A stretch of 64,000 nt of DNA from Branchiostoma floridae (Eukaryota > Chordata > Leptocardii > Amphioxiformes > Branchiostomatidae). This document shows, in pieces, positions 6,796 to 57,800 of this stretch. A program made the position numbers and the translations under genes. The stretch covers positions 19,477,165-19,541,164 of the forward strand of contig NC_049989.1 of the NCBI RefSeq assembly GCF_000003815.2, given 5' to 3'. The notes under the pieces are model-generated. The model saw only the letters and a list, made by a program, of their open reading frames with translations, searched no databases and was not told the origin of the DNA. Positions within the stretch are counted from its first letter, which is position 1. Each line of letters opens with the position of its first letter.

Positions 6796-9700
6796 TCATC
6801 TCTCCTGTGTCCTGGTGACGAGCTCTCCCTCTGACACTGATGATTTCCCCTTTTTCTTAGCTGGTTCTGTGGGACAGACATAGTCATGGGTTAGCCTGGC
6901 AAATAGACACACGTGGCTCGTACATCCTAGTAGTCACTTAACCACACTACTCCCCCTATTAGTCACCATCGGAACTGCAGCAAAGATGCTACATAGTCTC
7001 TAACAAGCTAGTAAGGATGGCAGCAATCAGTCATCATTTTGAAGATTAGCCTTCAAATATTAGATATTGATAGACGATAGAAGAAAAAAGGGTATTGATA
7101 AATGATATAAATGCCTTCAGACTAATTTTACATTGTAGTTCTTTTTCATGTGAGAAGAGCATTGCCAAGTACGTATCTTACTGTAATTTGACCTTGACAT
7201 TGCAATATATGGGCCGTCTATTTGGTAAGCAGTTTTATGATACAGACCAAACCAATAGAGAAACAAGGTCCAGAAAATGTTGTCAAGAGGATGATAATAT
7301 ATATATCACACACATTCTTTCTAAAGAAATACAGTGCAGATCTGTTCCAATCTGTTGGACAAGTACCCATCGATATAGTTGAAATGAATGTTACAACTGC
7401 ACTGTTAACATGGCCTGCTTACCGTTATGGTAGTGCTCTGCAGTTTTCTTGCGCAGTTCGTCCACGGTTTCCTGGGTGTCGGCCCACTCGAGCACCAGGC
7501 GACGCCCGTACAGATGCGTGCTGTGTACCAGGGCATTAAAGGCTCTCTGGGGAAATAGTACAATATATGAGCATTTAAGGTTTTTAAATGAGTTAGATTT
7601 TGATATACATGTACAGTTACTCTTTACAGTCATGGCATCAGGCATTGTTCAACACATAAAAAAAGTGCCAATAGTAAAAGAATTTCATTACTGGAAGTGA
7701 AAATACAAAGAAGTGAAATGTTACTTCAGACAAGTAAACTTTTTATGTACTTGCCTGATAGGACAAGTGAATTTTAGAAAACTTGTTAAACCCTGTGGTT
7801 CTAAGTAAAGAACCTTGTTATCGAGTGGTTTCCCAATGACATGAAATTATTCACGTACCTTGGCATCCTGTTTTGAGAGGAACTCCACAAAGCCGAACCC
7901 TCTGTGCTGGGTGCTGCCGAACTTCTGAGGCAGCCGCACAAACTTGATCTCACCAAAGGTACTGAACAGGTTCTGCACCTCCCGCTTATTGGCTTGGAAT
8001 GGGATGTTTCTCACCAGGATCTTGGATGATCTCTGCTTCTTCCTGGAGACTTTTTTTCTCTGTGAACTGTCGTCTTTCTGCACAGCCCTGTTTGAAACCT
8101 TCAGCTCTAGACTATGGCCATCCACTTCACAGTGCTGCAGGTCTTTCAAGGCCTTCTGTGCGGATTCTCTCTTCTGAAATTCCACAAATCCGTAGCCCAT
8201 GGACAGGAGCTTCCCAGGATTCTTCATGTCCTTCTTCGTGGCGATGGTGACGCTTCTGATTGTCCCACAGGAGGAGAACCTCTGCTTCAAGGTCGCTTCC
8301 GTGGTGTCGAAGTTCAGGTTCTTCAGAAACAGGGTGCACTTTCCGCGCTCCTCCTGACCTTGGTCATCATCAGAGTCAGAATCTTCCTCCTCTCCTGACT
8401 CGTGTTCACCGCTATCTTGTTGCTGTTTCTGGGCGGCCACGTCCATAGGGGTGGAGAACACTTCTGTGGGAGCCCACTCCAGGTACAGGGGAACATGCTG
8501 GAACTGGGAGTCAGAAAGGGAAAAGATGGATATATGATTTGTTTGTTTGTTTGTTTATGGATGAATCTCCAGGTACAGGGGAACATGCTTGAACTGGGAG
8601 TAACAACAGAAAAGGAAAATATAAATATATGATTGTTTGTTTGTTTGTTTCTTTATCAATGAATCTCCAGGTAAGGAGGACATGCTGGAACTGTGAGTCA
8701 ACATGAGCTCACAACAGAAAGTCTTTAGGGAAATATATATGATTTGGTTGTTTGAGGGGATCCAAACTGAGTCACGTATAAGATGGCATTCTTGCTGCTA
8801 CAGCACCACCTTTAACATCATCTATAAGTAAAAGTGAGAAACAGATCCAGTCATTCTAACCCTGATGATGGTGTCTGACAGACATCAAAATGTTGGATGC
8901 GAGTACTACCCTGGTTATGTTTAAAAGAATTTTACTATACAAATATTAAGCATTCCAATGTCAGTGCATGGTGCTCACCTTGGTGTAAGCCAGCTTGTAG
9001 AAGGCAGTCCTTGCCTCTGATGGCTCCAGAAACTCCACCACAGCAGTCACCCCGACCGGGGGCAGAACCACTCGCCCCAGCTGTCCAAACTTGCTGAACA
9101 CCTCCTGCAGTTGTGTGGCCTCCGTTCCCGCAGGCAAGTTCTTCACCTAAAGAAATTTCGGGCACAAAAATAGTCTGTAATGCAGAACTAATGCTCAAGA
9201 TTTTTATATGCTGCTGTAGTACACCATTGGTGCCAACTGCCATGGTTCCTTGTAGATTTCCCTTTGGCAGGGTCAGTTAAATTTTGAGACAATCAGGCAA
9301 TGTTACTTGGTCAAATGGAAAGATGAGTGGGTACTAAAAACATGTTTAATTTATCGCTCGTAGTCAATTGATATTGGTCATTTTCTCTATAGTGGCCACC
9401 TGTCTATAGTGGCCACATTTCTCCATTCCCTTGAGTGGCTGCTATAGACAGGTTTGACTGTACAGGTATTCAGGTACACATCCCTACCAGTAGCACAGTT
9501 TTACTTCTGGCCGCGGCAGGCTGACTGAAGGCGTCCAGCTTGACTCCGTTGTCCAGAAGGAACTGTCGGGTTTCTGCCACTATCTGTGTCTCACCCAGAG
9601 CCATCCGCACGGCAAGACTCTCTCTGGAATCCTGAAATTAGAATAATTTATTTATTTACTTATTGAGATTTACCATGTTTGTGGAAGGCAGGCTTTTAGC

Positions 9701-12700
9701 CAGGCAGGCGTCAGGGTGTCTATTGTACGCCCTGTTCTGAAAATAATTGAAATCAGACCAGTGCTGCTAGAAGGCTAACAGAGCAGGTCATATTAAATCT
9801 CAGAGACAGTGTTTCAAGAGGCATCAAGGTAAAGATACCCGTCACATATACTGTCTAGTAACATGGAGCAGATAAGGCAAATTTTCAGTATATGAAAGCA
9901 TAGTTAGTACACTTTTGAAACTTAACTTTTATGCTTTATTTCAAGTCAAAGAAAAGACTTACAGCATCTAAGACATGACTCTTGGTGGTGCCATATTTTT
10001 CCGCCATGACGTCTGCGACTGCATTCTCTCCTAGGAACAGGCTGTTCCAGTTGTGGGAGCTGAGGGGAACCAAAATCAAAGTCACTTCCATATGCATGTG
10101 GCATGATTGGTTACTAGTAGTCAGGTCAATGCTTTTCATGCACTAGAGGGAAACTTGTAGTAAGCAAATTCAACACGCATATCAAGAAGACTCATTAGAC
10201 TCTGAGGTGACAAGGTGTGCTTGGAGAAATATGCAATCCAGAGCACAGACGTGCTGTCGTCAATCCTTGTCTACAAGTGCCTTGCTTTGTCCGCAGTTAA
10301 CCTTTATAGGTTCAAGGTTCAATCTCCAAACTTTGAACCTTGAGGGTACTGCATTTATCTAAACTCTTACCTTCCTGCCTTAGCTTTCTGATCGGCTTCC
10401 TTTTTCTTCTTGAAGTCCTTTCCACCGCGTGCCCCTTCCTCCTGGTTCCTCCCCCTCCCGGGCAGGATGTGCAGCAGACGACCCATGAACAACCATGATA
10501 AGGAATCAAAAACACTCACCTTCCTGCCTTAGCTTTCTGTTCGGCTTCTTTCTTCTTCTTGAAGTCTCCCTCCTTCCCACCGCGCGCCCCTTCCTCCTGG
10601 TTCCGCCCCCTCCCGGGCAGGATGTGCAGAAGACGACCCATGAACACCGTCCCGTCCAGCCGTGAGAAGGCCGTCACGGCGTGTTCCGGAATCATGAAGG
10701 TCACGAAGGCGATGCCCATGGCTCGTCTGGTGAAGGTGTCGATGGGGATGTGGCACTCCGTCAGGGGACCTGGAGATCAGATGACATCAGCAACTTTAAG
10801 TAAGGATTTAAATTCAAAGTAAGACTTAAGTGTTAAACTAGTTTTGAGTGACACCCATCACTCTTTTTCAGTGTCTCTAGAAGTAAATCTCCATTTTCAT
10901 GCGGTTGTAGACTCTGCGATTGAATTGCATCCTTTTGCAATCATGACAGTCCGTCAGGGGACCTGGATATCAGATAACATCAACATTCATTTCAGTACAT
11001 CCGCATTAAGTGTAAATGGGTGAGTGACACAGCTGGGATTCGAACACAACGAAGGCTTCTTAGCCAAGAGGAAAGGTCACAAAGACGATCCCCATGGCTC
11101 TCCTAGTCAAGGTGTCTATGGGAATGTGGGGCCGCGTAGCACAGTGGTAGTGTATTCGGCCCGTGACCGAGAGGTCGCCGGTTCGAATCCGCCTGCCGTG
11201 TTGCCGGTCTTGTGCCCTTGGGAAAGGCACTTTACACGACTTTCCTCACTTTACTCAAGTGAAAAATGAGTCGTCCCTCGGATAGGACGTTAAATGGAGG
11301 TCCCGTGTATGGGGAGAGTCACACCCCATGCACGTTAAAGAACCCCTACACGTGCGATGGTGCGGTGTGGTTGGAGCAAACCCTTCTGTCTGGAGTTGGT
11401 GATTCACTTCAAATCACCCGGTTGTAGGCCTGGCGAACCTCTATACCATATCAGCCACACGGTGATTTACATCATTCACCCGGACGGGAGACCTGGCGCA
11501 TCCCCGTCTTGTAATTAGCCAGCGAAAGGGTATGTCACCCCGTAAGGGGCGGTATCACCCCGTCGTGTGTAAACATGTGCGAACATGTGTGATCACGTCG
11601 ACCGATGATGATGATGATGATGGGAATGTGACACAGGGGACCTTGATATCAGATAACATCAACATTCATTTTGGTAACATCAGCATTCATTCCAGTAGCG
11701 TAAATGGGAGAGGAACACAGCTGGGGTTGAAACACAAGGCTCCTTAGGCCAAAGTAAGATTTTAAATTTAAAGTAAGACTTAAGTGTTACACGAGTTTCG
11801 AGTGACATCTATCACTCTTCTTCAACATCCCTAGAATGGCACTGTGATGCTGAAGAATTCTGATTAATGTCACTTGAAACATCCAGAAGTAAATCTCTGT
11901 TTTCATGCAGTTGTAGACTATGATCATGAGATTGAATTGCATCCTTTTGCATGAGACACTCCGTCAGGGGATCTGGAGATCAGACAACATTGGCATTCAT
12001 TTTAATCAGCAAGTTAAACTTAGACTTAAATGTAAGACTTGAGTGTTGTTACAGTAACTGTAAAATCTCCACCCCAAATTAAAACAACCTTTTGCATGAG
12101 CCAGTCCGTTGTTACTGTAAAATTTAGAAGTGTTCACTGTGAAATTAAACTTATACATTCCCAGGTTAGTAGAATCTAATAAAAAAAAAAGAAAACTCAA
12201 AACATCATGCACTTCTATTACAGGACTCATTTCATTGACATTAAGATATGAGACAATGTTGTAAAATTCCTAGTAGTATAGTTAGTAGGAGACAATTATG
12301 TCCCGAGGATAACCACCCACCGTATTTAGTGAACAGTCCCTCCAGGTCCTCCTCCTTACACAGGTAGGGGAGGTTCCTGATGAACAGGCGTCCAGACTGG
12401 AGAACAGAAGACGGAGAGTTATCCTGATGGCACTTCTACATGACATGTTATCGATTTTCATACAATGATGATGTAGAACAGGGTTCCGGCCAGCGTCCAT
12501 CATTCCGTCCTTCGATGGAATTTTGATGCTGGGGCCAGGCGAAAATTTGCCCATTCCGTCCTGTGACAGACGAAAATTGACACGTATAGATTCTAATAGA
12601 ACCAAACTGAGTCTACCAGAAAAATTTGCCCCTCAAAATAAAGTAAGTAGCATTTCAGAGGGTCTACATTTTAAAATTTTCCAGGGAAACATCCCCCCCC

Positions 12701-25179: not shown

Positions 25180-28100
25180 TCACATTTTCATCCTGACGAA
25201 CATCTTGTCGAGGAGAGAGGGGAAGATGGCGCCGATGGTGACCACGGTCCAGCAGAAGGATGCTGGGTAATAGATCTCTCGCGCTCGGGTCGCCCCGCCG
25301 CGGATGATGGCCCGAGCCGTCTGGTCAATGGGCGTGGCTCTCTTCAGTCTCTTCCGTCCTTTCTCCGTTTTCTGGAAGACATGAAAATACTAATCTCCAA
25401 GCAGATCTTTCAGTAACATAAGATCAAAACCTGTCAGAGGAGTGAAGCCGGTCTAGGAGTAAGTATGCTATCGGTGCCCGTTTGACTCCCCTAGGCCGGC
25501 TATACTCCTTTGTCAGATTTGACACTATCCGTGGCACCGTAGGATCTGCTTGGAGATTAGAAAATACTAGTATGCCACGGTTTAAACTCATGAAAATTGT
25601 GATGTATTTTGGGTTACATGTTCAAAATCAAAAGCCCCTGAGACATAAACAAATCACATCTGGACATGTACATGGCGGTACCAAGTATGGCCTCGATACT
25701 GAGGCACAGTTTGGGGCCTATGGCGATTTCTATGGTTAAGGCCACAAGGTGTGGCTAATCGTTTGAGCGATTTTCACGCAATGTTACAGGGGTATTAGGA
25801 CGGGACGTTATGAAAGTACAATGAACCTGTAAATACTGCACATGCCATGGGTTCTCCTCTGTCACAACCAGAGGGAGAATAGCTCTTTAGTGAGCCAAAC
25901 TGGATCGAAATTCCTTTCCTTAAAGTTTCCTTTCATTTCCTTACCAGAGAAAAATTAATGATATTCAGCATGCTAATGTTCCATCATCATAATTCATTGC
26001 ATTTCTGCCATTTTTCTACCATAGCATATTTCTGTTGCGACATTATCGTACCTGCAGTCTCTCAATGACCGCCGGTGTCTTGGTGAAGCCCATGATGGCC
26101 AGAGTGACGGAGACGTCGTGCCCGGCTCTCAGTAACTCCAGACGGAGGCAGCTGAAGAACCCGTCCACACCGAACTTCAGAGCCGCCTCCCAGTGCATGT
26201 TGGGCACCGGGACCTTTCCTGTAGGTGGAGTTCATCCGTCAATAGTTACATCCGATTGGTATATGTCACTGAATAACAACATTTTTAGCACAGAACATTC
26301 TCCTACGTAGAGGGACAACCGTCGTTATATGCTCCTACTGGCTGGTCAAGTCAATGAGTTTCTACGACAGATTCATCCCTGCTGTAGGAGAATGACATAA
26401 CATAGAACCAACGTTTCGGTGACCGTCTGTCACCTTCCCAAAGGCAAGTCTGTCTGGTTCAGATTGCACTGCAACATAGGTGTCGCTGCTTACAGATATA
26501 GATGCGGACCCAAACGTTAAGTATTTACATATATAGTCATAGATAGTTAATGTGGTGTTTACATTGGATTGGTTTCACTTTTTACTTCACAGAGAATACA
26601 ATTTGCGGCGTCGTGTGTGGCGTAACTGGTAGTGTTGGGTTCCGAACCTAGAGTCCCAAGTTCGATACCCGCCGCGCCGTGCCCCCGACGTTGTGCCCTT
26701 GGGAAAGGCACTTAACACGACCTTCCTCACTTCGCCTAGGTATAAAAATGGGTACCTGATCATGACTTCGGTCGGGGAGGTACTTTGACCTTCTGTCTGT
26801 ACTTTTATGTGGCAATGTTAAATTAAGTTACTAAACTTGAGTGCACTACCACATTGTCCTTGTCTGTCAGAAAACGAATATAGAATATAATTAGCACCGT
26901 TTTTGTTTACAATAACAAGTTTTTATACCTTTAAAAAATCTGTACTAAATAAATGGACTAAATCATCAAGTCTTACCTACAGGTCCCGTCACGACCACGA
27001 TACTCCCCTTGCTCTCCTTCAGAAGAGGCAGGGCCAGCGTCGCCAGCCGGACGTAACCAATGAAGTTGATCTTCATGACGTCTTCCAAGAATTCCATGTT
27101 GGGATCCTCGTCCCAAGACTTCTCCGCGAAATCTTCGTGGATGCTCTTGACGTTCGACCCTCCGTGGTTCAGGATCAGGTAGTCAAGACGCCCTGAAATC
27201 GAAAAGTTCTTCAATTGGTTACCAAGTGTCATTTTTTTTCTTTTCAGGAAGTATTACAGGTTCGCGATGGCGAAACCTGTTTTGAATCCGTCGGCATTGC
27301 TAATCTCCAAGCAGATCCGACAGTAGCATAAGATAGTATTCAAAAGCTGCCAGAGGAGTGAAGCCGGCCTAGGAGTGTGTTTGGCTACCGGTGTTGATAG
27401 CCTTTCTTCAAGCCGACTGAGGGCAGATTCCCAGTGGCTGATGACTCCCTTTGACCAGCTGTACTCCATAGCCAGCTTTGATACTATCTTATGCCACTGG
27501 TAAATCTGCCTGAAGATTAGGCAATAGGCATTGTCAGGTACCGCTATTTTGGGATTCAGCTGTTACTCGTTTCTGGTGCCATCTTGATTACAGTCTTTGG
27601 GGAATCTTTGGGTCAGTCGCCCTAGTTCCAAGAATGCAGCACCATCATGGATAACTAGTCTGAAATGCAACTGTCAGTAACTGTTTAGGTACTGACTGTC
27701 CTATTCCAATACTGATAGTATTTGCTACCGGCATCCATCCACAGCCAAGCTGCTGACTTTCACAGACACTTCGCCATAGCAGAACAGAAAAGATTACCTT
27801 CTGGCGAATGTAAAAACAACAGTTTTCTTATCGAATTTCTCCTTGGCTGTTTGAATGGTTCTCTCACAGTCCTCCGCCTTCCCCATGTCCCCGGCCACGT
27901 AGTGCGCCTCCTGAGCACCAAGGGACTTTGCCTTCGCTACAACCTGGGGAATCATTATCCTGATAAAACTTTGTACTTTTACAGAAAAAAAACATTTGAT
28001 CATAAAGACTATCCCTATTCTACACAACGACAGGTGTCACCATCTTGGGATTCTGCCACCTTTCTGTCGCTATCTTCTCTCAGGTATAGATGTAGCCTAG

Positions 28101-30436
28101 ATTGTTCAAGGTCTGCAGTACAATATGATTTGCTGCAGTACTTGAAGAATAGCTTCCTGATATGAATGGCACTTAATGTAAATTGTCATGCCTACAGATT
28201 ATGTCACCCACTTTGCAAGTTGATACACCTACTTATTCTACAAATCATGAACTCCATTGCTGGGAAAGCTGTCTTTATCGTGATTAATACTTGTACATGT
28301 CGCGCATGCGTGTTCACCTCCTTCAGCCTGTTCTCCCTCCTGGCTGTGATGAGGATCTTTGCTCCCAGCCGGGCGTACTGGTACGCCACCTCTTCGCCGA
28401 TACCGGTACTGCAGCCCGTGATGACGACTGTGGCTCCTCGCAATTTCTCTGCAAAGACGATGAAAGTTGTCCTCACTACTTGCTATCATATGACTCTATG
28501 TTTGATACATGTACAGCTAAACACTACTAGTAGTTACCGACCATGACCTTACGATACTTTTTGCATTTTGCCGCCTTAGCGGCAAAATGCCCTGAGACCA
28601 GAATAGTCGCCGTTGTGATGAACGGACCTGTTCAATCCATGCCAAACATTTCTATACCTGTTAAAACAGTGATTTTTTCATCATGTTCGCACTGGCGCAG
28701 TGGTTAAAGTTTACGCATTCTAAACCAATGCACCCGGTTCGAATCCGGGGAGATAGATTTTTTTTTTCTTTTTTACACCATTAAAATACTAATTTTTACA
28801 TCCATTTGGCCACACCAATTTATTTCTTTGGTTAACGGATTCGCCGCTTCGTTTTTTTGCCGAATAGAAATAAAAATTAAAAAAAACAACTTAAAAATGC
28901 CCCGCAACAGAGCTCACTCAAAAACAGGCAGTGTAGTGAAATTTGCTGCAGTTCACGCAAATCTTAACAGGTGGCGTCTAGATCTAGATTCAGGCACATG
29001 CATATGTGAATCTCTCCATGCGCCAATATCAGGTTTAGTTACTCTGTTCTATTTATATGACATTCTAATAACTAGAAAAAAACGTTCACGCACGCAAACA
29101 TTGGCAAAATGCCAGCTTTTTTAAAAGCACTTGTTTTAATTCATAATACAGCTGTGATCTTTGATTCAAAGCACCAAAAATGTAAGGTTTACCTAAACAA
29201 ATGATGACAAAAACCATGAAGCGACTGACAGCGGACTGAATTTGCGTTGTCCTAGCCTAAGATTTTGAATGTTTGTCTTTTCTTTTCTTAATTACATCCC
29301 TACCTTAAGTCCATACCTTAACATGTCCTAGTTATCAGAAGGCATATCCCGCATATATGTCAAGACTAGAGTGACTAGATGCATGACGAAGAAGTAGAAA
29401 CTTACCAGGATCAAAGTCATCCCTGGTCCAGTAGAAACCGAGTCCCACCGCTGCCAAGCCTGCTGGAAGACTGGCCAAAGCTAAATGACAAACGGTAAAG
29501 GTTTAGCACCGGTCAGTGGGAACATGGGGTGACTTCGAAGGGAATGCTTGCAGGAAGTAGAGTTCAGAAATTGATTACGCAGGTATGACAGGACGTTTGG
29601 ACTCTCAACCATTGCAACCAACTTCTGTTAGATAAATTATAAAACTGATACTAACAGTTACTTAATTTATATCCATATGAAATAAAACTATCCGCTATAA
29701 AATGGGGCATTCCACCTACGCTATTAGCACGTGTTATCAGAGGGAGCACCCCGTCAATGATTCACTTTATGTTAGTTCACAAATTATGTAAGCCCGTATG
29801 TATGTAACACCTAATTTGAACAAGAGTGTACGACTTCGCTTTGAGTTGACAGAACGCGCAATGAATTTCAAAGACAGAGGACTTTTCTTCGCCTATGTTT
29901 TTTTCTTGCTTTTAAGCCATACTTTTTACATATTACAAGGTGTACACATAACTGGGCACTCCGTGAACGCCGTCTACGGGAAATGGGGTCCGACTTACAG
30001 GTTAAATATAAACAGGGCAAATATAACGTTGCGTCCGCACGTGTGAAATGCAGGTCAGGTCTAAAGCTTAGCCCTTGTTCCCAAGCGTCATAACTTGGCA
30101 TTCTGTTATATACTGAGATGTATCGTTGTCTCTGTGAATGGCCAAGTTTGTCCTCACCGTGATTTGTTCAAAAATCAATATTAATTTTTAGGGCTTGGGT
30201 CATCAAAAAAGGGGCAGTTGCATATCCATCATCACGTGTACAGGTCACAGCAAAAATATCAAAGTAGGGCATAAAGTACGCAGTCTTGAACTATATGACG
30301 TACTACATTAGATTAAGACAATTTTGGTGAGCTAATGGTACTGTAATCTATGATGAATTTTACCGTAGTTTCCGGAGACCCCGAGCCCCACTGCAGCCAC
30401 CACCGCCGCCAGACTGCCCCACACCAGCCTGGACAT
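25180..30436 (-). CDS. short-chain dehydrogenase of the 11-beta-HSD / HSD11B1L group; seven exons, catalytic residues substituted, one defective donor
   Basis: Exons in transcript order: 30436-30364, 29480-29406, 28448-28318, 27943-27832, 27192-26977, 26218-26052, 25371-25180; phases match throughout and give 321 aa (human HSD11B1L is about 315). An N-terminal membrane anchor (VWGSLAAVVAAVGLG, then LAAVGLGFYW) precedes the NADP-binding TGCSTGIG motif near residue 60. Next come HYVAGDM, LDYLILNHGG and INFIGY, and the C-terminus ends in another hydrophobic segment. ILNH and KFxxDGFFS are signatures of the 11-beta-HSD group, which interconverts steroid keto and hydroxyl groups at the ER. Where active members read VVVSS and YxxxK, this protein reads VVVTG and EAALK, so the catalytic Ser and Tyr are missing while the Lys remains. 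The donor expected after exon 4 reads ATAAGA instead of GTAAGA at 27831. It may be a pseudoenzyme, a decaying paralogue or a pseudogene. Confidence 0.8.
25391..25559. mobile_element. MITE family A copy
   Basis: TAATCTCCAAGCAGATC at the left and GATCTGCTTGGAGATTA at the right are near-perfect inverted termini. The interior shows AGAGGAGTGAAGCCGGTC opposite GCCGGCTATACTCCTT. It sits in the last intron of the dehydrogenase gene. Confidence 0.8.
26600..26830 (+). mobile_element. tRNA-derived SINE copy
   Basis: TGGCGTAACTGGTAGTG (A-box region) and AAGTTCGATACCC (B-box region) precede the same TTGTGCCCTTGGGAAAGGC core and CTTCCTCACTTCGCC block seen at 11209-11250. It lies in a dehydrogenase intron. 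Confidence 0.7.
27300..27519. mobile_element. MITE family A copy
   Basis: TAATCTCCAAGCAGATCCGA opens the copy and TAAATCTGCCTGAAGATTAG closes it. The AGATAGTATTCAAAAGCTG and AGCTTTGATACTATCTTATG blocks pair inside. It lies in a dehydrogenase intron, about 110 bp upstream of exon 5. Confidence 0.75.
28562..28591. repeat. short hairpin
   Basis: GCATTTTGCCGC, a five-base loop and GCGGCAAAATGC form a 12 bp perfect stem in a dehydrogenase intron. Confidence 0.6.
28685..28757 (+). mobile_element. tRNA-like sequence (SINE head or tRNA pseudogene)
   Basis: TGGCGCAGTGGTTAAAG fits an A box and CCGGTTCGAATCCGG is a perfect T arm. GCATT/AATGC forms an anticodon stem with loop CTAAACC. The acceptor-stem halves do not pair and a T-run follows, so a functional tRNA is unlikely. 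Confidence 0.55.
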
Positions 30437-31312
30437 GGTGAATGGTATGTACTGATCAACTGGACAGGAAAAGTACAAGCAGACATCAGAGCATGCGCAG
30501 ATATGGCACCGCGCGGTACGTCTTCTAATAGCACTAGATGAGAATTCTAATTGCCAGAAAACTAGGTTCCAGAAAGGTACGAATAGGTGACCCCATTTAA
30601 TGTCTTCAATTTTCAATTGCTGCCCTATGAGATCCAGTGGGAAAATGCATTAGACAGAATTACTGAGAAATTTACATACTAGTACAAGGATAAAACAAGA
30701 AATCCACAAAAACAAAGCAGAAAGATGTTAAAGAGGAATGAAAGCTTCGATTTGACGTGTTTATGACTGTGTTTTTTTTTTTTTTTACACATGCCCCAAA
30801 GATGGCTCCAGATCTTTGCCTTAATGATGTCCCTTCCCAGACACGTGCCACGTGGACAATTTCTAGTAGCGTCCGGGCCGGTAGTGATCATTTGACGACG
30901 GTAGGCCGGGAGTTGGACTTTGATCCCCATTCTCTTTTACTGGACAGATCTATCATTAGATAGGTGATGCGGTGCCTCCGCCTTGGTAAACAATGGCTGA
31001 GGTCGCTGGGGTTACACACGCCGCAAAAGCCATTGGCAGTGGTATGAAATTTCAAAACCAAGAGCATCAATATAAGGTTACTACAAATACTATGTTTGAT
31101 ATATTTTCATGTACAAACAGATAAACAAACAAACAAACCACTCAAAGTCGCAAGTTCTCTCCTTTGATGGCGTGAAAAAAACGCTAGGGGCTGTAGTACA
31201 GCTCTAAATCGCTTGGCGGCGCTGTAGCTCTACCTCACATCACCAGCATCATCACTATGGCGGGTCTTTACAAAATTTCGGAAGTTCCTGACTGAAGAAA
31301 ACTGATAAAAAC
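30437..31312. other. divergent intergenic region between the dehydrogenase and RAD1
   Basis: About 880 bp separate the two divergent start codons, so the region probably holds both promoters. I see no TATA box at a useful distance. It contains a T-run (30773-30786) and an (ACAA/CAAA)n tract near 31120. Confidence 0.4.
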
Positions 31313-34300
31313 ATGTCGCTGTCCACTCAGCAGGGCGATGACGAAGACAACAACATCCTCGTGGCTAAAGTGGACAACGCCAGGAACATCTCCAACATTC
31401 TCAAAGCCATTCATTTTCGAGACGTAGGAAAAAGTTGCGATGATCTTGTAGTGGGGAGGGGGGCATTTTCTCGGCGTGTAAAATATTATATTATGTGCAT
31501 GCAACTTGTAGCTCAAGAATGTAGAACATGACTGTGTGATTAGAACTAAGGAATGGACATATTATAATTGATAAAGAACAGACGACAATAGGCATACGTT
31601 ATTCAGAAAAGTATCTTGTTAACTCTTGAAAAATAGTGTTGTGTTTTGACCAGACATATACGATATATTGGGGTCATACTGTATTTATACTAGAAACGTT
31701 ACTGACATGATCATATGGATGACATCCTTTGAGAACCTACAAAACAACATGCAAAAAAATCAAGCAAAAAGTTGGTATCACCTGGTCACGAAAGTGGTCA
31801 CGAAGGCTTGAACAAATGATATTTTTACTACTAGTACTTTCCAAGCAGAGGTTAGTCTCCGGTTGTTTTTTAACGTTTTTTTTTTAGTCGTTTTTATCGG
31901 GCTTTCTATTTTTTTTTTAACGTTATATCTTGCTTTGTCAAAACCTACTTCAAGAAAAATGACCAAATAGAAAGCCTGATAAAAACGACTAAAAAAACGT
32001 TTGAAAAAACAGCCGGAGCCTAACCTCTGCTCAAGGAGAGTAATTTATATAGCATCGTGGAACCTATTTTGGGAAACAGAGGAAAATGTATGTGTACACA
32101 GATGTCATCCATACTAGTAGATAAAATCAACTTGGCACTAACCCCTGGAAATATGAACTGTCTGCCTTCATGACCTCTGACCTTATGACAAATTTCCCAG
32201 ACTGCCACAGTGTTTGCGTCGTCCAATGGGCTGAAGGTGACGGTGGAAGAGTCCAAGTGTGTCCAGGCCAACGCCTTCATCCAGGCGGGCGTGTTCCAGG
32301 AGTACGCCATCCGCCAGGACTCCGCAACCTTCAAGGTCAACCTCACCGTACTGCTGGTAAGGTCACGCAGGGTCAAGGTCATGTGCATCATCATCCGCAA
32401 TCTGAACCATTAGTTGAATCTATGCATATATTCTTTTTGTGGAATGCTCGACACTTGGGGTGGGTACCAGTACAAAACCGTTTCTTTTTTGTACCAGTTT
32501 TTCTTGGACCAGTCCAGAAAAAACGGACCTGAAAAAAATCAGTACACCAGATGTTGGACCGATTAGAAAATCAACAGATTATACTGGCAAGCCTGCACAT
32601 GATTTGGGGCTTACAGGTCCAAGAAATTAATAAGAGTGAAGTAGAGGATAGTTGACAGAGTTATATTCTAATTCTTGAGCCAAGTGGGCAGGATGGTTAA
32701 ACATTTATGACTGAATGAATACACAGATCATAAAGTATTCAATGTGCAAAGTGTATGTTTACAACAAAATCAGTACTAGTACTTAAATGATGTTTTATCA
32801 TGATTGGTATTCTTTTTCTTACATTCTTTGCCACTTAAGGCATAAATTTGTTCATTCTGCAGCTGTTTTTATACAATTTTGCAGTATTGTTGGACATTTT
32901 TTTCAGTAATGTACATTGTGCAAAAATTGTTGGGCACATGGATGTCATTGGTATACCGTACTTATGACCTAACCAGGATGATGCTTGTTTCCAGGAGTGT
33001 TTGACCATATTTGGCAGTAGTTCAGCACCAGGAATGAACACTGCTCTTAAGATGTGCTATGCTGGATACGGCTCTCCTCTGCAGTTATTGTGAGTACAGA
33101 TTTCATATTGATAACATTTTCTTTCTCACTGAATCAGGCCAAATTGACTTGATCCCTTTTATCCTGGATCCCATCCCTCTCCTCCTACCACCTTTTATCT
33201 CCCCAACCAAAATCAGGTCAACCAAAATCAGGTACCCATTCTTACTCCTGGGTAGAGTGAGGAAAGTTGTGTTAAGTGCCTGTCCTAAGGGCACAAGATC
33301 GGTAGCATGACAGGATCCAAACCCAGGACCTTTGGGTTTTGGCCAAACACCCTGTGCACAGTTATGCCAAACGAACCCACAGTTTTGAGGCATACTAGTA
33401 TTTATCAGCCTGGGTCCCAGCCATTTTAGCTATAGTATGCTCGACCTCTCCCTGTTTCCCATGGGGTGAACTATTTGGCCCATGAGTAACAGAAAGAAGT
33501 CACTAAAGCTAAAGTGTACTATTCCATTTACCCCAATTTTCTTTTACTATCAGGTTAGAAGAGGGAGGCGTACTGACTGACTGCAGTATCAAAACAATGG
33601 AGCCAGATGAGATGTTAGATTTCGGCTTCTCCAGCGCCAATGTGGAAAACAAAGTTATCATGAAGGTAGGTTGTTCTTTTTCATATCTACTTCCTATCAA
33701 TGTTGACTATCGCCATTTCTGTACTTTATTAGCTTATATTTCAATTAATACTGTTTCAAAATGCACTGCATGCATTAAATCAACTGTACCCCTAACTCCT
33801 TCCCTTACACCAGTCCGAGTGTTTAAGAGAAGCGTGGAGTGAACTGGACATGACCAGTGACGTTCTACCAATGTCTAACAGTAACTGTACCCCTAACTCC
33901 TTCCCTTACACCAGTCCGAGTGTTTAAGAGAAGCGTGGAGTGAACCGGACATGACCAGTGACGTTCTACCAATGTCTAGCAGTAACTGTACCCCTAACTC
34001 CTTCCCTACTCCAGTCCAAGTGTCTAAGAGAAGCGTGGAGTGAACTGGACATGACCAGTGACGTTCTACCAATGTCTAACAGTAACTGTACCCCTAACTC
34101 CTTCCCTACTCCAGTCCGAGTGTCTAAGAGAAGCGTGGAGTGAACTGGACATGACCAGTGACGTTCTACAGATCTTGATGTCTCCAGACAAACCTTACTT
34201 CAGACTCTCTACCTTCGGATATGCAGGCAGCATTCATGTAAGTTCCAACAAAGTTCTGGTAGCAGCTGTATTGCCCATTCTCCTATGCAGAGACATCCAA

Positions 34301-36184
34301 TGGCACCAGCAAACTCCCTCTTGTCTACTCTGCTGTCTCAACCGTCACCATCATAAGCTGGAACTGATGGTGACGGTTGAGATAGCAGAATACAGACAAG
34401 AGGCAATTTCAGTTCAGTTCAGTTTTATTTGAGTCCAACTTGCACGTGCACTGTACAGACAGGCACGTGAAATCTGTTGGCCCACAAGGGCGCTGCACAT
34501 TTGCTGACGCTGTTGAATGAATGAATGAATGAACTTTATTGCACAACATTTGTACATGGTACAATTGTAAGGCAACAGTAACAAGTCAATTAATACAATG
34601 ATACTCGTCTAAGTTCTATAACTACATACAAATATAGTATACAAATGTGAACATAAATGGCGTATTGACATAGTGTAATATGCAAGTTTAACAAGTTGGT
34701 CTGTTACTGTACAATAGATTCTCTCTTTTTTAGAGCATTACAAATGTATTGGCCTAAATACGAAGATATGTAGTCTGGACATGACATAAGTAGATTGAAA
34801 GTACATGTGTTTGTCTTTGGTAAAGATGTCTCTGTGTAGGAGAATGGTATTACTTTACTAGTAAGTAGCTTCTTTCCTCGACATTTTCGATTAGAAATTA
34901 GGCAGCAATCAATATGAAAAGTTTAAGAGAAGGACTGTGAGAGACTTGAATGTGTATTTGAAATTGTACTTGCCGTTTTTTTATACAGGCTGACTACCCA
35001 AAGGACTCAGATATGGTGGAGTCTTTCCAGTGTGAGCAGACTCAGACTAACAGGTAGGGGACATTTGCCTTGTACATAGTTGTTGTAGTGCCTGTTGTAG
35101 TAGTTTACTATAACAGTTTATTTTCAAAACAATATGTGTAGTGAAACAGTAACAAATAGGCTGGTAGATGTGCCAGCCTGTAATCTATTAACTTACAAAT
35201 TCTTTTTCATTTTGTTGAATGAAAGGAATTGCTATCAAATACAGCAGAGGAGCTCTAAATTACAGCCAGATAAAGATGAATTATCAATGATTAAGTTATT
35301 ACATTGATGAAGGTTAGACATCCAGGTAATAAGATATGCCAAAAAGCAGTTACTCAAGCAATTGATTTTTGATTTCCAAAATCATATCCAGTTGCTTGAG
35401 TAACTGCTTTTTAGCGAAAGTCATTACAAGTGGTCCAGCCAGCCAGCCACAGACTTGTGCCTGCAATACTGATGTCTTTCACTAGAGGGCATTTATGATC
35501 TTTGTCTATCATATGTAGGTACAAGCTGTCCCTCCTGAAGCCGTCGGTCAAGGCCCTGTCTCTGTCCTGTAAGATCTCCATCCGAACTGACCACCGAGGA
35601 TTCCTCTCGCTCCAGTATATGGTCAGGAACGAGGACGGACAAGTTTCCTTTGTAGAGTACTATGTGAGTATTTTAGAGTACTATGTGGTATTTCAGTTTT
35701 CTTAATTCTCTCTCATTCAGTCATTTAATCACTCACTCACTCACTTGCATACACTTAATTCATAACCCCATGTTTTTGAAGAGCCAACGTTTCAATGATT
35801 ACCTGTCATCTTCTTCAAGGCAAAAATGACTGCCAGCAGATCAAGTTCACTTTGCAAAGTTGCGTGCTGTTCCCTAGCCGGCTATATTCCTCTGGCCGGC
35901 TTACTCCTCTATTTGTTCCATTTCTACGTTTTTCCAGCAACCCGGAGTCTGGTAGAGACTAACTTTGCACTGCAGCTAGGTGATATTGCAGTATCAAATG
36001 TAAAGTACTGTCACATGTACAGCTATTGTTAAACAACAATGAGATAATGCAGTTCCAAACATTATGTATTGAATAGTTAAGCTTCATCTAGTCCTGAGTT
36101 ATTTTGTATCCTGTAGTTTATTTCAACCTCTGATTTTATTTGTTTGTTTTTCAGTGCTGTCCAGATGAAGATGTGGAGGAATAA
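31313..36184 (+). CDS. RAD1: RAD1 checkpoint clamp subunit, complete, eight exons
   Basis: RAD1 joins RAD9 and HUS1 in the ring-shaped 9-1-1 clamp that is loaded on damaged DNA to activate ATR (family knowledge). Exons: 31313-31423, 32201-32356, 32995-33089, 33554-33665, 34115-34237, 34989-35053, 35519-35663, 36155-36184. Phases agree at each join and total 278 aa; the human protein is 282 aa. The start MSLSTQQGDDED and the segments LKAIHFRD, KCVQANAFIQAG, SELDMTSDVLQILMSPDKPY, RLSTFGYAGS, ISIRTDHRGFLSLQYM and VEYY match the family along its whole PCNA-like fold. The short last exon encodes CCPDEDVEE. Exon 5 is preceded by three tandem decoy copies of its acceptor and head, and only the fourth continues into the full exon. 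Confidence 0.95.
31841..32036. mobile_element. MITE family C copy in RAD1 intron 1
   Basis: CCAAGCAGAGGTTAGTCTCCGG at the left pairs with CCGGAGCCTAACCTCTGC at the right. Inside, TTTTTAGTCGTTTTTATCGG pairs with CTGATAAAAACGACTAAAAA, so the element can fold along most of its length. Confidence 0.75.
33150..33375 (-). mobile_element. tRNA-derived SINE copy in RAD1 intron 3
   Basis: The minus strand has TTGTGCCCTTAGGACAGGC and CACAACTTTCCTCACTCTACCC, the core of the 11129 and 26600 copies. The tRNA-like head (CCTGGGTTTGGATCCTG) is diverged. Confidence 0.65.
33771..34175 (+). repeat. tandem array of a 100-101 bp unit containing the RAD1 exon 5 acceptor and head
   Basis: Four units have acceptors ending at 33813, 33914, 34014 and 34114. 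Each has a pyrimidine tract, AG and about 57 nt of exon 5 (TCCGAGTGT through GACGTTCTAC). Units 1-3 then revert to CAATGTCTAACAGTAACTG, the spacer leading to the next acceptor; unit 4 continues with AGATCTTGATG into the real exon. Reading on from any of the first three acceptors meets a stop within the next unit. Confidence 0.9.
34317..34402 (+). repeat. imperfect hairpin in RAD1 intron 5 (pre-miRNA-like or small MITE)
   Basis: CCTCTTGTCTACTCTGCTGT + CTCAACCGTCACCATCA pairs with TGATGGTGACGGTTGAGATA + GCAGAATACAGACAAGAGG around an 11 nt loop. The stem is about 37 bp with a few mismatches. No transcript evidence is available. Confidence 0.6.
35338..35416. repeat. inverted repeat in RAD1 intron 6
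   Basis: AAAAAGCAGTTACTCAAGCAA and its complement TTGCTTGAGTAACTGCTTTTT flank about 36 nt. The right arm and its ATCATATCCA lead recur at 1003-1043. Confidence 0.7.
35848..35965. mobile_element. MITE family B copy, one arm truncated
   Basis: CTAGCCGGCTATATTCCTCT + GGCCGGCTTACTCCTCTATTT leads to CGGAGTCTGGTAGAGACTAA. The left terminal repeat is lost. It is in RAD1 intron 7. Confidence 0.65.
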
Positions 36185-36593
36185 TTTGTGTGAAAACTTT
36201 AAAAAAATGATTGAACCAAAGTCGGTTATTGCAACCCTTAGGAAACTCTCTCATGATCGCAATGCCTGGCAGTAGCGGACCAACATCACTGTTTCCACTT
36301 TTAAAACTGCTGTAGAGGGGAAAAGATAGAAAGAAAGGACTCCAAACTACTAGACTTCCATACTTCAGGATTAGAGTGGCTGTCCACCATTCTCTAAACT
36401 GAAATTTAGATCTTGGTAATGACTATCATACATGATACTTTTGTATGTATGAAGTAAAACATCTAGTTTTGTTCTTGTTTGTTCCCTGTCACCATAGTTG
36501 TAAATAGCTCTGCATTCCTTTTATGTATGTACCGAACGGGAACCTGACTCATAAAAGCATTTAGTTTCAGTTCCAAAAACTAAAGTAAGTGTA

Positions 36594-36599
36594 AATAAA
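36594..36599 (+). promoter_or_regulatory. RAD1 polyadenylation signal
   Basis: An AATAAA hexamer lies about 410 nt after the RAD1 stop codon at the end of an AT-rich stretch. Confidence 0.5.
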
Positions 36600-36813
36600 T
36601 AACATTCTTGATATAAACATGTGTTTATAGGAGGAAAATGCTTGCTTCTTTATTTTCCTAATAAAAGTTGATAAGCATAGTTAACAACAATCTTTGGTGA
36701 ATATGATAGATGATAGTTGGTAATAGGTAAGATCAATCCTCCATCTACAAAGTAGTAACATAAAAGGTGTTCATCAATATATTGTAGTGATCTTTTTATA
36801 AAAATGTACACTT

Positions 36814-37146
36814 TCAGAGCTCGAAATACTTTTTTCTGCATACCTGCACTGGTGCAGGTAACATTGAAAATTACCTGCACCAGACAAATTTTACCTGCAC
36901 CACTTTGAATTTAAGAACTATGGATCAAACTTAAATTGTTCAGGAACTATTGCTATCTTTTATAATTTATTGGTGGAAACAGTTGGTGCAATAACAATCC
37001 ATATACACCTGCATCATAGGACATTTATGTATAAAACCCAGTACATTCACCAGTGCAGGTTAGGTGCAGGTAGACACCAGAAATACCTGCACAGCACCAA
37101 TTTTACCTGCACTAACCTGCATATGCAGGTGGTATTTTGAGCCCTG
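36814..37146. mobile_element. hAT-like non-autonomous element with internal CCTGCAC repeats
   Basis: The ends CAGAGCTCGAAATAC and TATTTTGAGCCCTG are inverted and match the CAGGGCTC-type termini common in hAT MITEs. The arms carry many copies of ACCTGCACC and GTGCAGGT. No exact 8 bp target duplication could be shown. Confidence 0.65.
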
Positions 37147-37569
37147 ACTTTGTAGCAAAATTAGCTAAATTTTTTCTTTAAAATGTGCACTTTGTAGCAA
37201 AGTTGGGAGGGGGCATTTTTACACGGACAATGAATTTTAAAATGTACGTGTATTTGACAAGAGTAGGCGTTGAAACTCCTACCATTTTCTCATCATTCAT
37301 CTATACGGAAACATTAAGGTGTTTATTATGTTTACCTTTATGGAAAAGAAATATATTGTTTTCACTACATTTCGTTGTCTTCTTTTCCAAACAAATAAGG
37401 TCAATGACCTTTACAGGTGGGCTGTTGCTGTGGAGGTGTTCGATTACATAATGTATCGATTAACTGGTTGTTGATGTCGTGTTTTCATCAGTAAAGTTTC
37501 ACATTGGAACAGAGTTGGTAGGGGTCATCTCGACACCCACCACATTTTAGATAGTGTAAGTATGGAAAT

Positions 37570-37614
37570 CTTGAAAATGGAAAGAGGTACATCGTACCTC
37601 TTTCCATTTTCAAG
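37570..37614. repeat. perfect 21 bp hairpin
   Basis: CTTGAAAATGGAAAGAGGTAC, loop ATC, then its exact complement. Nothing else nearby explains it. Confidence 0.75.
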
Positions 37615-37697
37615 TGTTGATAATATTTTGGACTTAACAGTAAATGACACGTTTAAGCTACACTTTGTTAGCAGTAATAGTGGATGGTAACGTTGCC

Positions 37698-37872
37698 TTA
37701 TCTCCAAGCAGATCCTACGGTGCCATAAGATAGTATCAAAGCTGGCCAAGGAGTATAGCCAGTCAAAGGGAGTCAGACGGGCTCCGGTAGCATACACACT
37801 CCAAGGCCGGCTTCACTCCTCTGCCAGCTTCTGATAATACCTTATGCTACCGTAGGATCTGCTTGGAGATTG
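37698..37872. mobile_element. MITE family A copy
   Basis: Near-perfect inverted ends (ATCTCCAAGCAGATCCTACG and CGTAGGATCTGCTTGGAGAT) with paired internal blocks (AGATAGTATCAAAGCTGGC, GCCAGCTTCTGATAATACC). Confidence 0.85.
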
Positions 37873-38819
37873 ACGTTTCCGCCATTTTGGCCTCTCTCAA
37901 ACTTGTGACGTATTTCCTCCAAGCAGAGGTTGTGATGGGGAGATTGCGACTTTACGATTAAGACAGCTCTGCTCCGTGTTCTGAAAAAGACTTTGTTCTT
38001 CCAGGGACGTTATATGATATAACGTCCTTGGTTCTTCTGTAGCCTGGATCCTTACACTCGCTACCCCTTTTAGATTAGTGACTTTAAGGAGTCCCGGTAG
38101 AAAAATAGGATGGTACCCAGGTTAGCCTGTGTTTACACAATCTCTCGCTGGCTGGGGTTAATGACCCCCGGCGGCAATACTATAGGGCCGGCCGCTAGGA
38201 GCGCGATTTTAGTCAGGCTAGTACCCAGGTTAGTTCTTCTGTATAACCATACTCTGTTAAGTCTTTTGTGCAACCTTCCTGACCACTTTCCAAACTCTTC
38301 TTTTTCTGCACACTCGCATTAGTTTTTGAGTTACAAGAGTACGTCATCCAGATACTAGTAATCGAATCAATACGGCCTCGCACTTTGTCTAATGGACCCT
38401 CTGTGTGCCGCGCACGCGCCGCTTCACGGCATATCCATCACTGTACCACCGAGGAGAAAGCCCCCCTCATACCGGCCCGACCTGGCGCCTTTGTTAGGAC
38501 CTTGCTCCATCATCTTCGCGGTGACGTTTTGTTGGGCACAAATACTACAGGCGGACAGGCCGGCTATTTTCGGGTGGGTCACGTATGGCGAGGGGTCAAG
38601 CAGCGTTCAGAGGGTCACCTAAGGTTTGTGTTGACCTGAACACGGAAGGTCAAATGAGTCACAAACTATACACACACAAACAACATTTGGGCATATTTGT
38701 TAAGGTTCACGTGCCAGATCATAGTTCATTTTCCACTCTGTGTCACAAAGTGTTGATTTCATGGCTAGTTACAAAGTTATGTCGTTATTTTAAGCACCAT
38801 GTCAGTCTTGTTCAGTTCA

Positions 38820-42071: not shown

Positions 42072-42405
42072 TTACTCTCCAAGCAGAGGTTCAGTTCCCG
42101 TTATTTTCTACGTGTTTTGGTGTGTTTTTATTGGGCTTTCTATTTTGTATTGTTTTCGTAATGTCAGTTTGTCTGGCAGACATAAAGAAAAACCACCCCA
42201 AAACACCAAAGAAACAGTCGACTTGGAACTTTTGCTTAAAGAGTACGCTTTGAGAGACTTTGAGACTAAAAATGGCAAGTCAGAATTTGATCGCCTGGCT
42301 ACGAATAATCACGAGAAAAGGCTTTCCCTTTCCGAAGGCACCGAAGGCCTGGTGGATCCTTTTGGATACTGTGGGATATACTGATATCTGCTTGGAGAGT
42401 ACGTC
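42072..42405. mobile_element. MITE family C-like element
   Basis: CTCTCCAAGCAGAGGTTCAG at the left and CTGCTTGGAGAGTA at the right form inverted termini. Inside are the family motif ATTGGGCTTTCTATTTTG and mirrored AAAACACC/GGTGTTTT blocks. Confidence 0.6.
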
Positions 42406-43934
42406 AATTGAGAAGCTGCCTGCAGTGCTGTCTAATTTCGCCAGAGGTCGTGAGAACCGTAAACATTCCCGTCCGAAGTTTCTCCGTATTGGCCACTGTC
42501 CGTTGTGAACTTCACATTAGTCACACGATAGGCAACAAAATGATTGCATTTTGGAGCAGCAATAGGTCGGCTCTATCAAACCCAGAAAAAAAAAATGAAA
42601 ATCCTACCTGAAAAATTAAATCGTACGATGTATCTACGTGTTTCTTTTTTTTTTTTTCGTCGCTCTAATGGTCAAAAGAAAAACGCTCATCACAGGATCG
42701 CCAGACATATCTACTTAAAGTTTGATTCTTAAGTTAAAAGATGAAATAACAATGAAGAAGCAAGAAATTCTGCATGTAGTGCGGTGGCATGTTGATACTG
42801 GATGCACGCACACGCAGAGAGACAAATGCACACAAAGACTGACATCCTTACCCCACCACATACCCTTCTTAGCAGAGGTAAAAAAAATAGTCTAATAGCG
42901 AACATCTCAAGCAACTAGAGAAAAGACTCTAATCTATAGGCTTGTCACACGCGAGCTCGGTATTTTGTCCCATCTTCCCTAATGTAGATAGCACATAGGG
43001 AGGATCGCGAACCGCCAATTTCACAAATTGAAACATGACAAATGAGTTTATTGGACCCAATCCCGCGCTACTTACACCAATAAATAGATTAAAGAAGGAT
43101 TTTCTAGACCAATCTACGGCAAAAAGACCCGGTGTTTTGCCGTGGTGTAATACATGGGAAAGGCCAACAGAGAGTAGTCCTGGATCCCTGGGCATTGAGA
43201 GGTCTTAGTCATAGCTTTTTGAAGCATAGAACACATGGTACATCACTGATGTTACTGAGCCTCTATGTATGGTAATTGGTGGGAGAGGACTTGTTGTGCA
43301 TGTCGGTACTGCATACTATTACATATGCTATCTTGGTACTGTTTTTTTACCAATGGACACAATGTAATGTCCTTCTTTTTCATCATTTTCGTCAATCAAA
43401 TGGCAATATCAATTTCTTTAGATTATGTTATTCCTTTCTTTAGTTTCCCTGTATCGTGCATACTTAATTGATACGTTTTTCTGTAATATATTTAGATTCG
43501 TATCCATACATAAAATGATAAAGAAAAGAAAACAAGAAAGAGCAAAATGGTAATGTGACATTCATTTAGGAAAGATACGATTGACAATTTATGTGTTATG
43601 TTATGTTATGTGCTAAGTTATGATATTACGCTGGGCACATCCCACAACGTTACATGCTATCAAACCTTTCGGAGATTTGAAATGGAAGTTGAAGTTGTTC
43701 AGTGGGTCCCTAAAAACTAAAAAGTCAGGACTGTTTGTCAGTATAGAAACGTGCAAACAAAACTCTGTCATAAACTTCGAGAGCTACCCGTGCCAATGGT
43801 TGGAAATTACAGCATGTGCCTCTTGTGCCTTGTGGAAACATTCAAGTCGTGTATTTTTTATCTTCAGTCTTGCAAATGACTGTGAAGGCCTAGGCGCCTA
43901 GAGGGCTATGTATAGTATACAAGTAGTTACAACA

Positions 43935-44305
43935 CTTGCGACACACTCAGGAAATGCTTTTTCGTCTGGGCTATTCTTGGCTTTCTGATCGCACGGTTGT
44001 AGCCCATTTCTTACAGTCGTCCAATGAAGACACATGCTGCACAGACTACCGGAGAATTGAAGCTTGACAGATTTCAGCTCTGTGACAATATAGTAATATT
44101 TTGACAGATTTCAGCTCTATGACAATATAGTAATATTTGGTCAACACTCAAGAAAGATCAAGAAAGGCTTTTTTGGCTGGGCTATTTTGGGCTTTCTGGT
44201 CGTATGTAGATTCCACTTGTAGCCCATTACCAATCAAGAATCATGTCGCATAGACTATTGGAACATTGAATAAGCTTGACAGATTTCAGTCGTCTCCTGC
44301 AATAC
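43935..44305. repeat. about 200 bp tandem duplication with an inner 38 bp duplicate
   Basis: ACACTCAGGAAATGCTTTTT...GGGCTATT...GTAGCCCATT...CTTGACAGATTTCAG recurs from about 44143 to 44300 with small indels. GACAGATTTCAGCTCTGTGA + CAATATAGTAATATTT is itself repeated head to tail at about 44065 and 44103. Confidence 0.75.
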
Positions 44306-54800: not shown

Positions 54801-57800
54801 TGCTTGTAGCTCTGAGGCGAAGCTAGGCAGTAAAAGGAGGGATTTCTTTTTTGTTGAGTTGGAGAATTGCTAGCGGGGGTTGCTCCAACCGAACAGATGC
54901 AGGCTTTCTGTCAGTTTTAAAGTGCTGGGGGTAATGTTGCGTGCAGGGCCATAAAGTACTTAGTCATTCAACAGGGGAGACCGTCGTATTATCTTGTCTA
55001 TTTTCGACTATGCGTTAATAGACTGGTGGATTTAAAAAATGGCCATATTTGTGTGTTCTGGTTGCCGACAGAAGGCTCGGTCCTAGAGAAAAGAAAGTTG
55101 CAATTTGAACGAAAAATATGATATTCGATATCATCAAACGTCAAAAGAAGCTTCCTATTCACATCACTATTTCAAATTAGGCTGATTTGTCTTTGGCCAT
55201 GTTTAGGAACATTTGAACTATTTGTGTTACATTTTCCGATGGACGCAATGCTTGGTCCTAGCATGCATAAAATGTTTTATATACATTCATACTTTTAAGA
55301 ATAATATGAAATATGATTAAAAAAAGGAGTTTTCAATCGTTTATCGAAACCATATATTCACAACATCTTTCACTTGAAGCAGACTGAATTGTTTTGAGGA
55401 ACCTATCTTTTGTTGACTATTCTCAGTATCGCTAACATGCTAACCAATTATTTTTGTTAACTTACAGATAACTCAGTTGAAGATCGACAACAACCCATTC
55501 GCCAAGGGATTCCGTGACAACGGCGGCAACCGAAGGTACGTTTATCTCTTTACTGCGTACGTTCATCTGCTTACTGTACACTTTCTTTTGTCCCAGAATG
55601 CGATCAAGGCTTTTAGAACTACCCCTTCTCTTAATCAAAACCGAATGCTTTATTCTTCTAGTTTTGCCAGATCGCTCGATAGTTTAACGTTCGCGTTTGA
55701 TAGGGCCCATGGGAAAGTCTTGGATATGTCGCACAAAGGTAGAATTTTGGAGGGAAGCCTTGTCGAAAATCGTTGTCAATGGTCGATTTTGTCTTGCCAA
55801 AGATCCCATAACAACCGTTAGCTCTATACAATAGAATATGATAGGAAATTTGAAGACTTTCTTGGGGCAGTCGTACAAATGTCATGCGAATGCAAAAATG
55901 TTGTGGATACTTGTGGGCGGTCAAAGCCTCGCTGAAATTGAAAATACTTCGCAAAAAAAATAAAATCCATGCGAACATGACTTCACAATCGCAGTATTCT
56001 AATCTCACGCTACCTGGCGGACTTTTGTGTGATTCCCTACAACACGCTTGCCATGTGTGATAACCCCTTCTTCCGGCCATAAAACTTACAATAGTACCTT
56101 ACCTGCTTCGGAAAACAAAGTGAGTAGACCGCGGTAGAATTAAGTTATAAAATCAAGGTAAATACGTGGAAAGGCTAAAATGTAGATGTCCAATTTACTA
56201 CTACGACTACAGTCTCTTAAAACTTCAACAAAATAAGTTGGTTATCCCAATAATCCAGAATGACATGGAATTTTGTGCTCGAAACGATTGGTACAATACC
56301 AATCGTTTCGAGCACGAAATTCCATTTTGAAGTCGCTGAAGGATTTGAAGAATTTTAACGTAGGATAACAAAAAAGTGACACTAGTAGCCAGGTCCGCCT
56401 AGACCTAAACATAGGATAGTCGCATGGTCAGCAAAAGTACTAGTATTTTGTTGTGATAATTGCTTTTTGACAATAATGAACACAATGTAACATTATAGAG
56501 GAAGTATCTCGAGTCACATATGGCCGTAGCGACGTTTTCATTCAGGAGAAAGGGTTCTTCCTGCGCTCTTTTGTGTCGCTGTCCCTTAACGATGTTCTCT
56601 CCACTTGATTGACTCTTTTCGAAATGATAGAAACCCTGGCTGTAGCTGCCTCGCTCTTTAACAGTTGTCTTTTGTGTGCGTGCGTCTGTCTCTCTCGCCC
56701 TTTAATTGAATTTAAGCGTGAGATATTCTTTCTTTTTCTTGTAGCAGGGAGCGCGCCATCGTGAGCACCAAGCGGAGCGCGGACGCAGCAGGGGAGCCGG
56801 GTGACTCAGGTAAAGCACTTCCCTTGCTAGGCTATCTCCTACATTGATTCGCCACGGAACCGTCCGATTCCCTGATTTATCAAAGTTGGATAGATTCGCA
56901 GTGAAAGGCGCCCTGTGTGGCGTACCCCCCGATTGAAAATGAAAAGAGAAACTTTCTCGATGTTTAGTATAGTGGTAGTAGGGTGGCCCGTGCGACCCGC
57001 GATGATATGGTCGTTTGTTAGGGGTGAGAAAGGCCAGCGAGGCCCTCGCGCGGGCGCACGCTCCCGACAATACCGACTACATAGACCTTGATTGAGACGT
57101 TTACACCCACCAATGTACCTCGTTAGCCAGTTCTTTTAGAGTGGAAGTGATTGTGGCAGACGAAGTCGCCTGTTTTGTACGAAACATTGGGTTTAAAATG
57201 GGACCTCCCATACAGAGAAAACTACTTGGTGTAAATCTTGCTCCTGACGTGTGTTTAGTCGTGGGCCCTCCCCTTCCCGTGCCTATTATGTGAGTGGCGC
57301 TTGCATGTCTGATGACACATCTGTTGTTATCTGTGCCCATCCTGCAGTTAGCAACAAGCGGCCGTGTACCGGAGAACAAACCGAGCGGAACAACAGACCT
57401 CCGAGCTGCGACTGCAGCGGCGTCGGGGAGGAGAGCGACGTGCCCCGAGGACCGGCCCAGTACAACCCGCCCGCCCAGGCCGACGACCTCAACCCGTGCG
57501 GCAACCCCCTCACCATCGTCACCGACGACATCGCCACTGACTTCGCCAAGGAGAGATCCCCGGGCGTTCCACACGCTCTCGGCGGACAGGGAAGCGCCGC
57601 GCTCCCGACGAGAGACCAGGCGGCTCTCGGTAGTTGTCAGGGCGAGGACATGAGATGTCAGACGCGCACAGCCTGTGCACAAGACCCGCGCGACCTTCTC
57701 GCCTCCCCAGACAGCGCCGACTATCACCAGCAGTACCATCCCGGCGGCTACAGCGGTCAGGCCGCGGGGGACCCGACCGACACCACCGGCGTGCCGCTCG

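Follow-up and report, generated by a model that had tools for sequence, protein, structure and literature searches.

At the boundary between intron 4 and exon 5 of RAD1 in the lancelet Branchiostoma floridae, a splice acceptor and the head of its exon stand in four near-identical copies, which raises the question of what kind of array this is and how one of the four acceptors is chosen. We addressed it within the window, i.e., the whole stretch of 64,000 nucleotides analysed. The gene and exon concerned are:

31313..36184, + strand: RAD1 coding region, eight exons (31313-31423, 32201-32356, 32995-33089, 33554-33665, 34115-34237, 34989-35053, 35519-35663, 36155-36184)
34115..34237, + strand: RAD1 exon 5, 123 nt, in frame, with donor GTAAGT at 34238

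A four-unit array over an exon start

Exon 5 encodes 41 residues that match the human RAD1 chains (3a1j, 3g65; E about 3e-16), which bears out the gene and exon named in the sequence-only reading. Exon 7 gives a Pfam Rad1 hit (E 1.5e-10), and seven exons joined yield 269 residues free of stops. We take 36155-36184, reading CCPDEDVEE and a stop, to be the last exon from its resemblance to the human C-terminus. The array at the start of exon 5 is composed as follows:

33782..34169, + strand: four-unit tandem array over the RAD1 intron 4/exon 5 boundary (TRF, repeat finder, probe matches)
33782..33882, + strand: unit 1, type A; AG at 33812-33813, first exon-like base 33814, 14-nt filler 33869-33882
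33883..33983, + strand: unit 2, type A; first exon-like base 33915, filler 33970-33983
33984..34083, + strand: unit 3, type B; first exon-like base 34015, filler 34070-34083
34084..34169, + strand: unit 4, type B, with the authentic acceptor; first exon base 34115

TRF reported 33782-34169 with period 100, 3.9 copies, and 96% matches, and a separate repeat finder likewise returned four copies. A 55-nt exon-head probe matched the window at 33814, 33915, 34015, and 34115 with 0, 1, 2, and 1 mismatches, and had no further site in the window when up to three mismatches were allowed (mean 0 in 100 shuffles). Four head-to-tail copies of a 100-101 bp unit, as first read from the letters, were thus recovered by TRF and probe alike. 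Two details of that description changed: the array is real but starts at 33782, not at 33771 as in the proposed extent 33771..34237, and the exon part present in all four copies measures 55 nt, not 57. The units are spaced by 101, 101, and 100 bp. Each holds 31-32 nt of intron end closing in AG, with a branch-point-like motif and a pyrimidine tract, followed by the first 55 nt of exon 5, so that the copied part comes to 86-87 nt. A 14-nt filler occupies each of the three internal joints (after units 1-3) and is absent from the outer flanks shown; when the 500 bp on each flank were searched for its template, shuffled fillers matched equally well in 339 of 500 cases. When 33782-34240 was compared with the 513,431,437-base genome (431 contigs), at least one match was returned and, among the matches listed, only the window itself appeared. 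Rfam gave no match over 28000-38000, and ARAGORN, set to the bacterial code, predicted no tRNA anywhere in the window. Just 3' of exon 5, an inverted repeat at 34311-34409 (28-nt arms, 93% complementary) is perhaps a small foldback element.

The units fall into two types: type A (units 1 and 2) carries cccttacaccag and TTTAAG, type B (units 3 and 4) ccctactccag and TCTAAG. Units 1 and 2 differ at one site, as do units 3 and 4, and A and B units differ from each other at 2-4 sites plus one single-base indel, amounting overall to 1-4 substitutions per 86-87 nt. This lies within the range of polymorphism in the lancelet B. belcheri, for which a SNP rate of 4.39% is reported (PMC4284660); the array therefore looks young, in agreement with the recent origin proposed earlier. 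Its origin by doubling of an AB pair was considered and rejected, since the order A A B B does not fit. That order points to a first duplication, divergence, and separate duplications, which would require at least three events. On this account, about 100 bp across the boundary would have been tandemly duplicated into a minisatellite, the first duplication, with the 14-nt filler, giving two units that later diverged and were each copied again.

Arrays at other splice junctions

Lancelet minisatellites over exon-intron boundaries have been described as mirages in Adh3, troponin C, the globins Gb6 and Gb9, and PGBD5; they are reported to hit acceptor and donor boundaries alike, to vary in copy number, and to leave splicing undisturbed, the last said to be shown by Adh3 data and globin RT-PCR (PMC3087553, PMC3902484). 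The sequence-only reading, whose interpretation held in part, had overlooked this published class of the same anatomy as well as further examples in the window:

35653..35693, + strand: RAD1 exon 7 donor (35663) within a 21-bp tandem duplication (TRF, junction overlap)
8477..8754, - strand: 90-bp unit in about three copies, each with the acceptor (8503) and head of an exon in an RBM19-like gene (TRF)
10361..10646, - strand: 155-bp unit present twice, carrying an exon tail and its donor (10519) in the RBM19-like gene (TRF)
10697..12047, - strand: decayed copies of an RBM19-like acceptor (10769) and exon head in the upstream intron
55536..55576, + strand: two-copy 21-bp array abutting a T-box donor from the first intron base onward, with no exon copied (TRF)

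The RBM19-like gene is named after two RRM domains labelled RBM19 (2cpf, 2cph), which are within its best four matches, behind a polyadenylate-binding protein. Other repeats were seen in passing. A dispersed repeat (about 11166-11271) lies among the decayed copies before the RBM19-like exon 10520-10769 and has relatives at 26646-26760 and 33227-33314. RAD1 intron 1 contains an imperfect palindrome (31844-32031; 76.5% over 200 aligned nt) partly similar to 42073-42146, and at 43906-44308 a stretch of about 190 bp is directly duplicated with 69% identity. An identical TRF consensus unit (period 17) is doubled at 35877-35910 and at 59760-59793, 24 kb apart, and is probably part of a dispersed element.

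Five of the eight window arrays with a period of at least 20 bp, a cut-off of our own choosing, touch one of 60 junctions, where 0.86 would be expected (p 0.0003); the list joins 57 junctions with the last RAD1 acceptor and two others, and is incomplete for T-box genes, SDR genes, and stretches with no recognised gene. With the RAD1 exon 5 array excluded, four of seven still touch (0.61 expected, p 0.001). When arrays had to reach 5 nt or more beyond one of the 60 junctions in both directions, the counts were 4/8 (0.80 expected, p 0.003) and, again excluding that array, 3/7 (0.55 expected, p 0.01). Restricted to gene spans and 57 junctions, five of six arrays touch, compared with 1.6 expected (p 0.003). 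TRF gave 18 rows, of which 1099-1135 was left out as overlapping another; all 17 remaining arrays, tested on the 57 junctions, yielded 5/17 (1.10 expected, p 0.003), and 4/16 with the RAD1 exon 5 array removed (0.87 expected, p 0.007). A probe test of the 57 junctions against 3000 random positions was weaker, with 4/57 passing the 95% level and 2/57 the 99% level, the random positions including the arrays themselves. Junctions were placed from homologous exons after the repeats had been seen, and this small, not fully blind count from one window suggests that tandem arrays of this genome gather on splice junctions. We tentatively raise a broader possibility, which we consider rather unlikely: lancelet splice junctions might themselves be preferred sites of tandem duplication, by a mechanism linked to transcription or splicing, which would produce mirages with near-identical competing sites genome-wide, the spliceosome picking the pair with the shortest exon.

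Globin and ADH loci of the same genome served as controls. Arrays with a period of at least 20 overlap the exon match at 1 of 12 globin loci (L011) and at 2 of 23 ADH loci (L016, L033), counting overlap with the match itself; in L009, L013, and L014 arrays lie nearby but outside the match. The L011 array lies over an exon start, with acceptors at 1036, 1190, 1348, and 1506 (spacing 154, 158, and 158 bp), and only the last of the four runs into the open exon. This fits BflGb6, whose haplotypes carry 6 or 3 repeat units (PMC3087553). As the legend in that source separates the authentic boundary from its duplicates, L011, with three extra copies plus the authentic one, may be the shorter haplotype. 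At the ADH_N locus L016, seven acceptor units lead into the exon and ten donor units out of it (59 bp x 6.9 and 33 bp x 9.8, TRF), numbers that may be off given a single N at the end of the donor array and an N run at 124-223. At 1122-2035 of L016, this exon with the units on both sides is an extreme case of competing splice sites. L033 carries a 143-bp x 3.8 array over the match end, and L021 the same array.

That two haplotypes or slipped reads were joined as extra RAD1 copies is very improbable. Lancelet polymorphism is extreme (PMC4284660), the BflGb6 array of the draft assembly is said to be aberrantly assembled (PMC3087553), the order A A B B could reflect two joined haplotypes, and the ADH donor array of L016 stops at a single N. 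Against this stand at least one base difference in all six unit pairs, the recurrence of the same class in the window and the genome, and the PGBD5 repeats, which are reported to be confirmed from original and new reads (PMC3902484).

Reading frame, splice signals, and choice of acceptor

Use of copies 1-4 would create candidate exons of 424, 323, 223, and 123 nt. Only copy 4 keeps the RAD1 frame, which supports, at the level of reading frames, the earlier claim that the last acceptor alone is productive; copies 1, 2, and 3 run into stops after 37, 42, and 42 residues, so the predicted truncation also holds. Skipping of exon 5 preserves the frame. The three stops sit 310, 194, and 94 nt 5' of the exon 5/6 junction. 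The usual rule for nonsense-mediated decay requires 50-55 nt, and RNAs spliced to copies 1-3 would therefore be expected to be open to this decay.

All four acceptors look intact, as had been noted, yet they may not be fully equal. CTAAC occurs at -18 or -19 in every unit, but copies 1 and 2 have an A at -5, which is found in 1 of 28 other window acceptors. In a small local matrix built from those 28, this A lowers copies 1 and 2 to a score of -0.3, whereas copies 3 and 4 reach 7.1; a generic acceptor matrix assigns 8.1 to all four, unlike the local one. From -20 to +3 no base separates copy 3 from copy 4, and the main difference between the two is their distance to the donors. The acceptor core thus cannot explain the choice between them, and an outside factor must decide. 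RNA structure hiding the decoy acceptors was tried and rejected, as the folding of 33666-34240 has a z of 0.15 and is equalled or surpassed by 51 of 100 shuffles. Every GT in the array has a donor score of 0 or less, against 9.2 for the exon 5 donor at 34238 and 2.6 to 11.4 for 28 window donors; with no donor within the units, their use as cassette exons was ruled out. Exon definition would be expected to favour the last and shortest of the four candidates, the 123-nt exon.

The array could also act as a working brake on RAD1, in which upstream acceptors divert splicing, the product decays by the nonsense-mediated route, and copy number sets RAD1 output. The AG, tract, and CTAAC motif in all three upstream acceptors would suit such a role, as would the position of the stops and the short intron resulting from a proximal acceptor: copy 1 would leave 148 nt of intron, below the minimum of 309 nt among 24 other measured introns. 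Short introns can be open to intron definition; this would pull splicing towards the wrong, proximal acceptor and counts against a choice by exon definition. We nevertheless consider a brake very improbable, given that published mirages are reported to have no effect on splicing (PMC3087553, PMC3902484) and that they occur in unrelated genes, which argues against a RAD1-specific use. Intron gain or exon creation under way, with a middle unit turning into a separate exon, has been proposed as a model for globin mirages (PMC3087553) but is hardly credible here in view of the donor scores.

By far the most probable reading is that the RAD1 array is a lancelet mirage, i.e., a young, near-neutral minisatellite whose distal acceptor is chosen by exon definition. 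The three upstream units would be spliced out with intron 4, productive splicing would use the acceptor nearest the sole good donor, and nonsense-mediated decay would remove RNA mis-spliced to the others. The array would then be close to neutral, and its copy number is probably variable.

Comparison with known systems

The RAD1 repeat unit lies across an exon-intron boundary and, judged by reading frames only, the innermost copy alone is coding while the rest is intronic, as in described mirages. By this anatomy it is a well-formed new mirage, ordinary for lancelets. RAD1 and RBM19 are not mentioned in two papers on mirages (PMC3087553, PMC3902484), and RAD1, the RBM19-like gene, and possibly the T-box gene extend the short list of genes in which mirages have been described. 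Arrays of this kind put splice-site choice to a natural test between competitors, e.g., copies 3 and 4.

Intron gain by tandem duplication resembles the RAD1 case in that a duplication within a gene multiplies splice signals; there, a new intron is reported (PMC4974935), whereas the RAD1 units have no usable donor and no new intron lies between a duplicated donor and acceptor. Adh3 mirages share the tandem exon-boundary units but differ in their published unit length of 10-72 bp and in reported somatic instability (PMC3087553, PMC3902484). L016 is like the described Adh3 and, compared with RAD1, has both exon sides affected and more copies. PGBD5, also from B. floridae, likewise has repeat units at splice sites (3 x 108 bp and 2 x 60 bp), and their copy number is not equal in two genome versions; it is another gene, its units are called imperfect, and an annotation predicted its repeats as an exon, which was unconfirmed but is a point against the reading favoured here (PMC3902484). 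BflGb6 is yet another gene, with units of 150-160 bp compared with 100 bp in RAD1, and its haplotypes are published, whereas the RAD1 array comes from one assembly. The RAD1 array is like the BflGb6 mirage in that the authentic boundary lies outside the extra copies and adjacent units are the most similar (PMC3087553).
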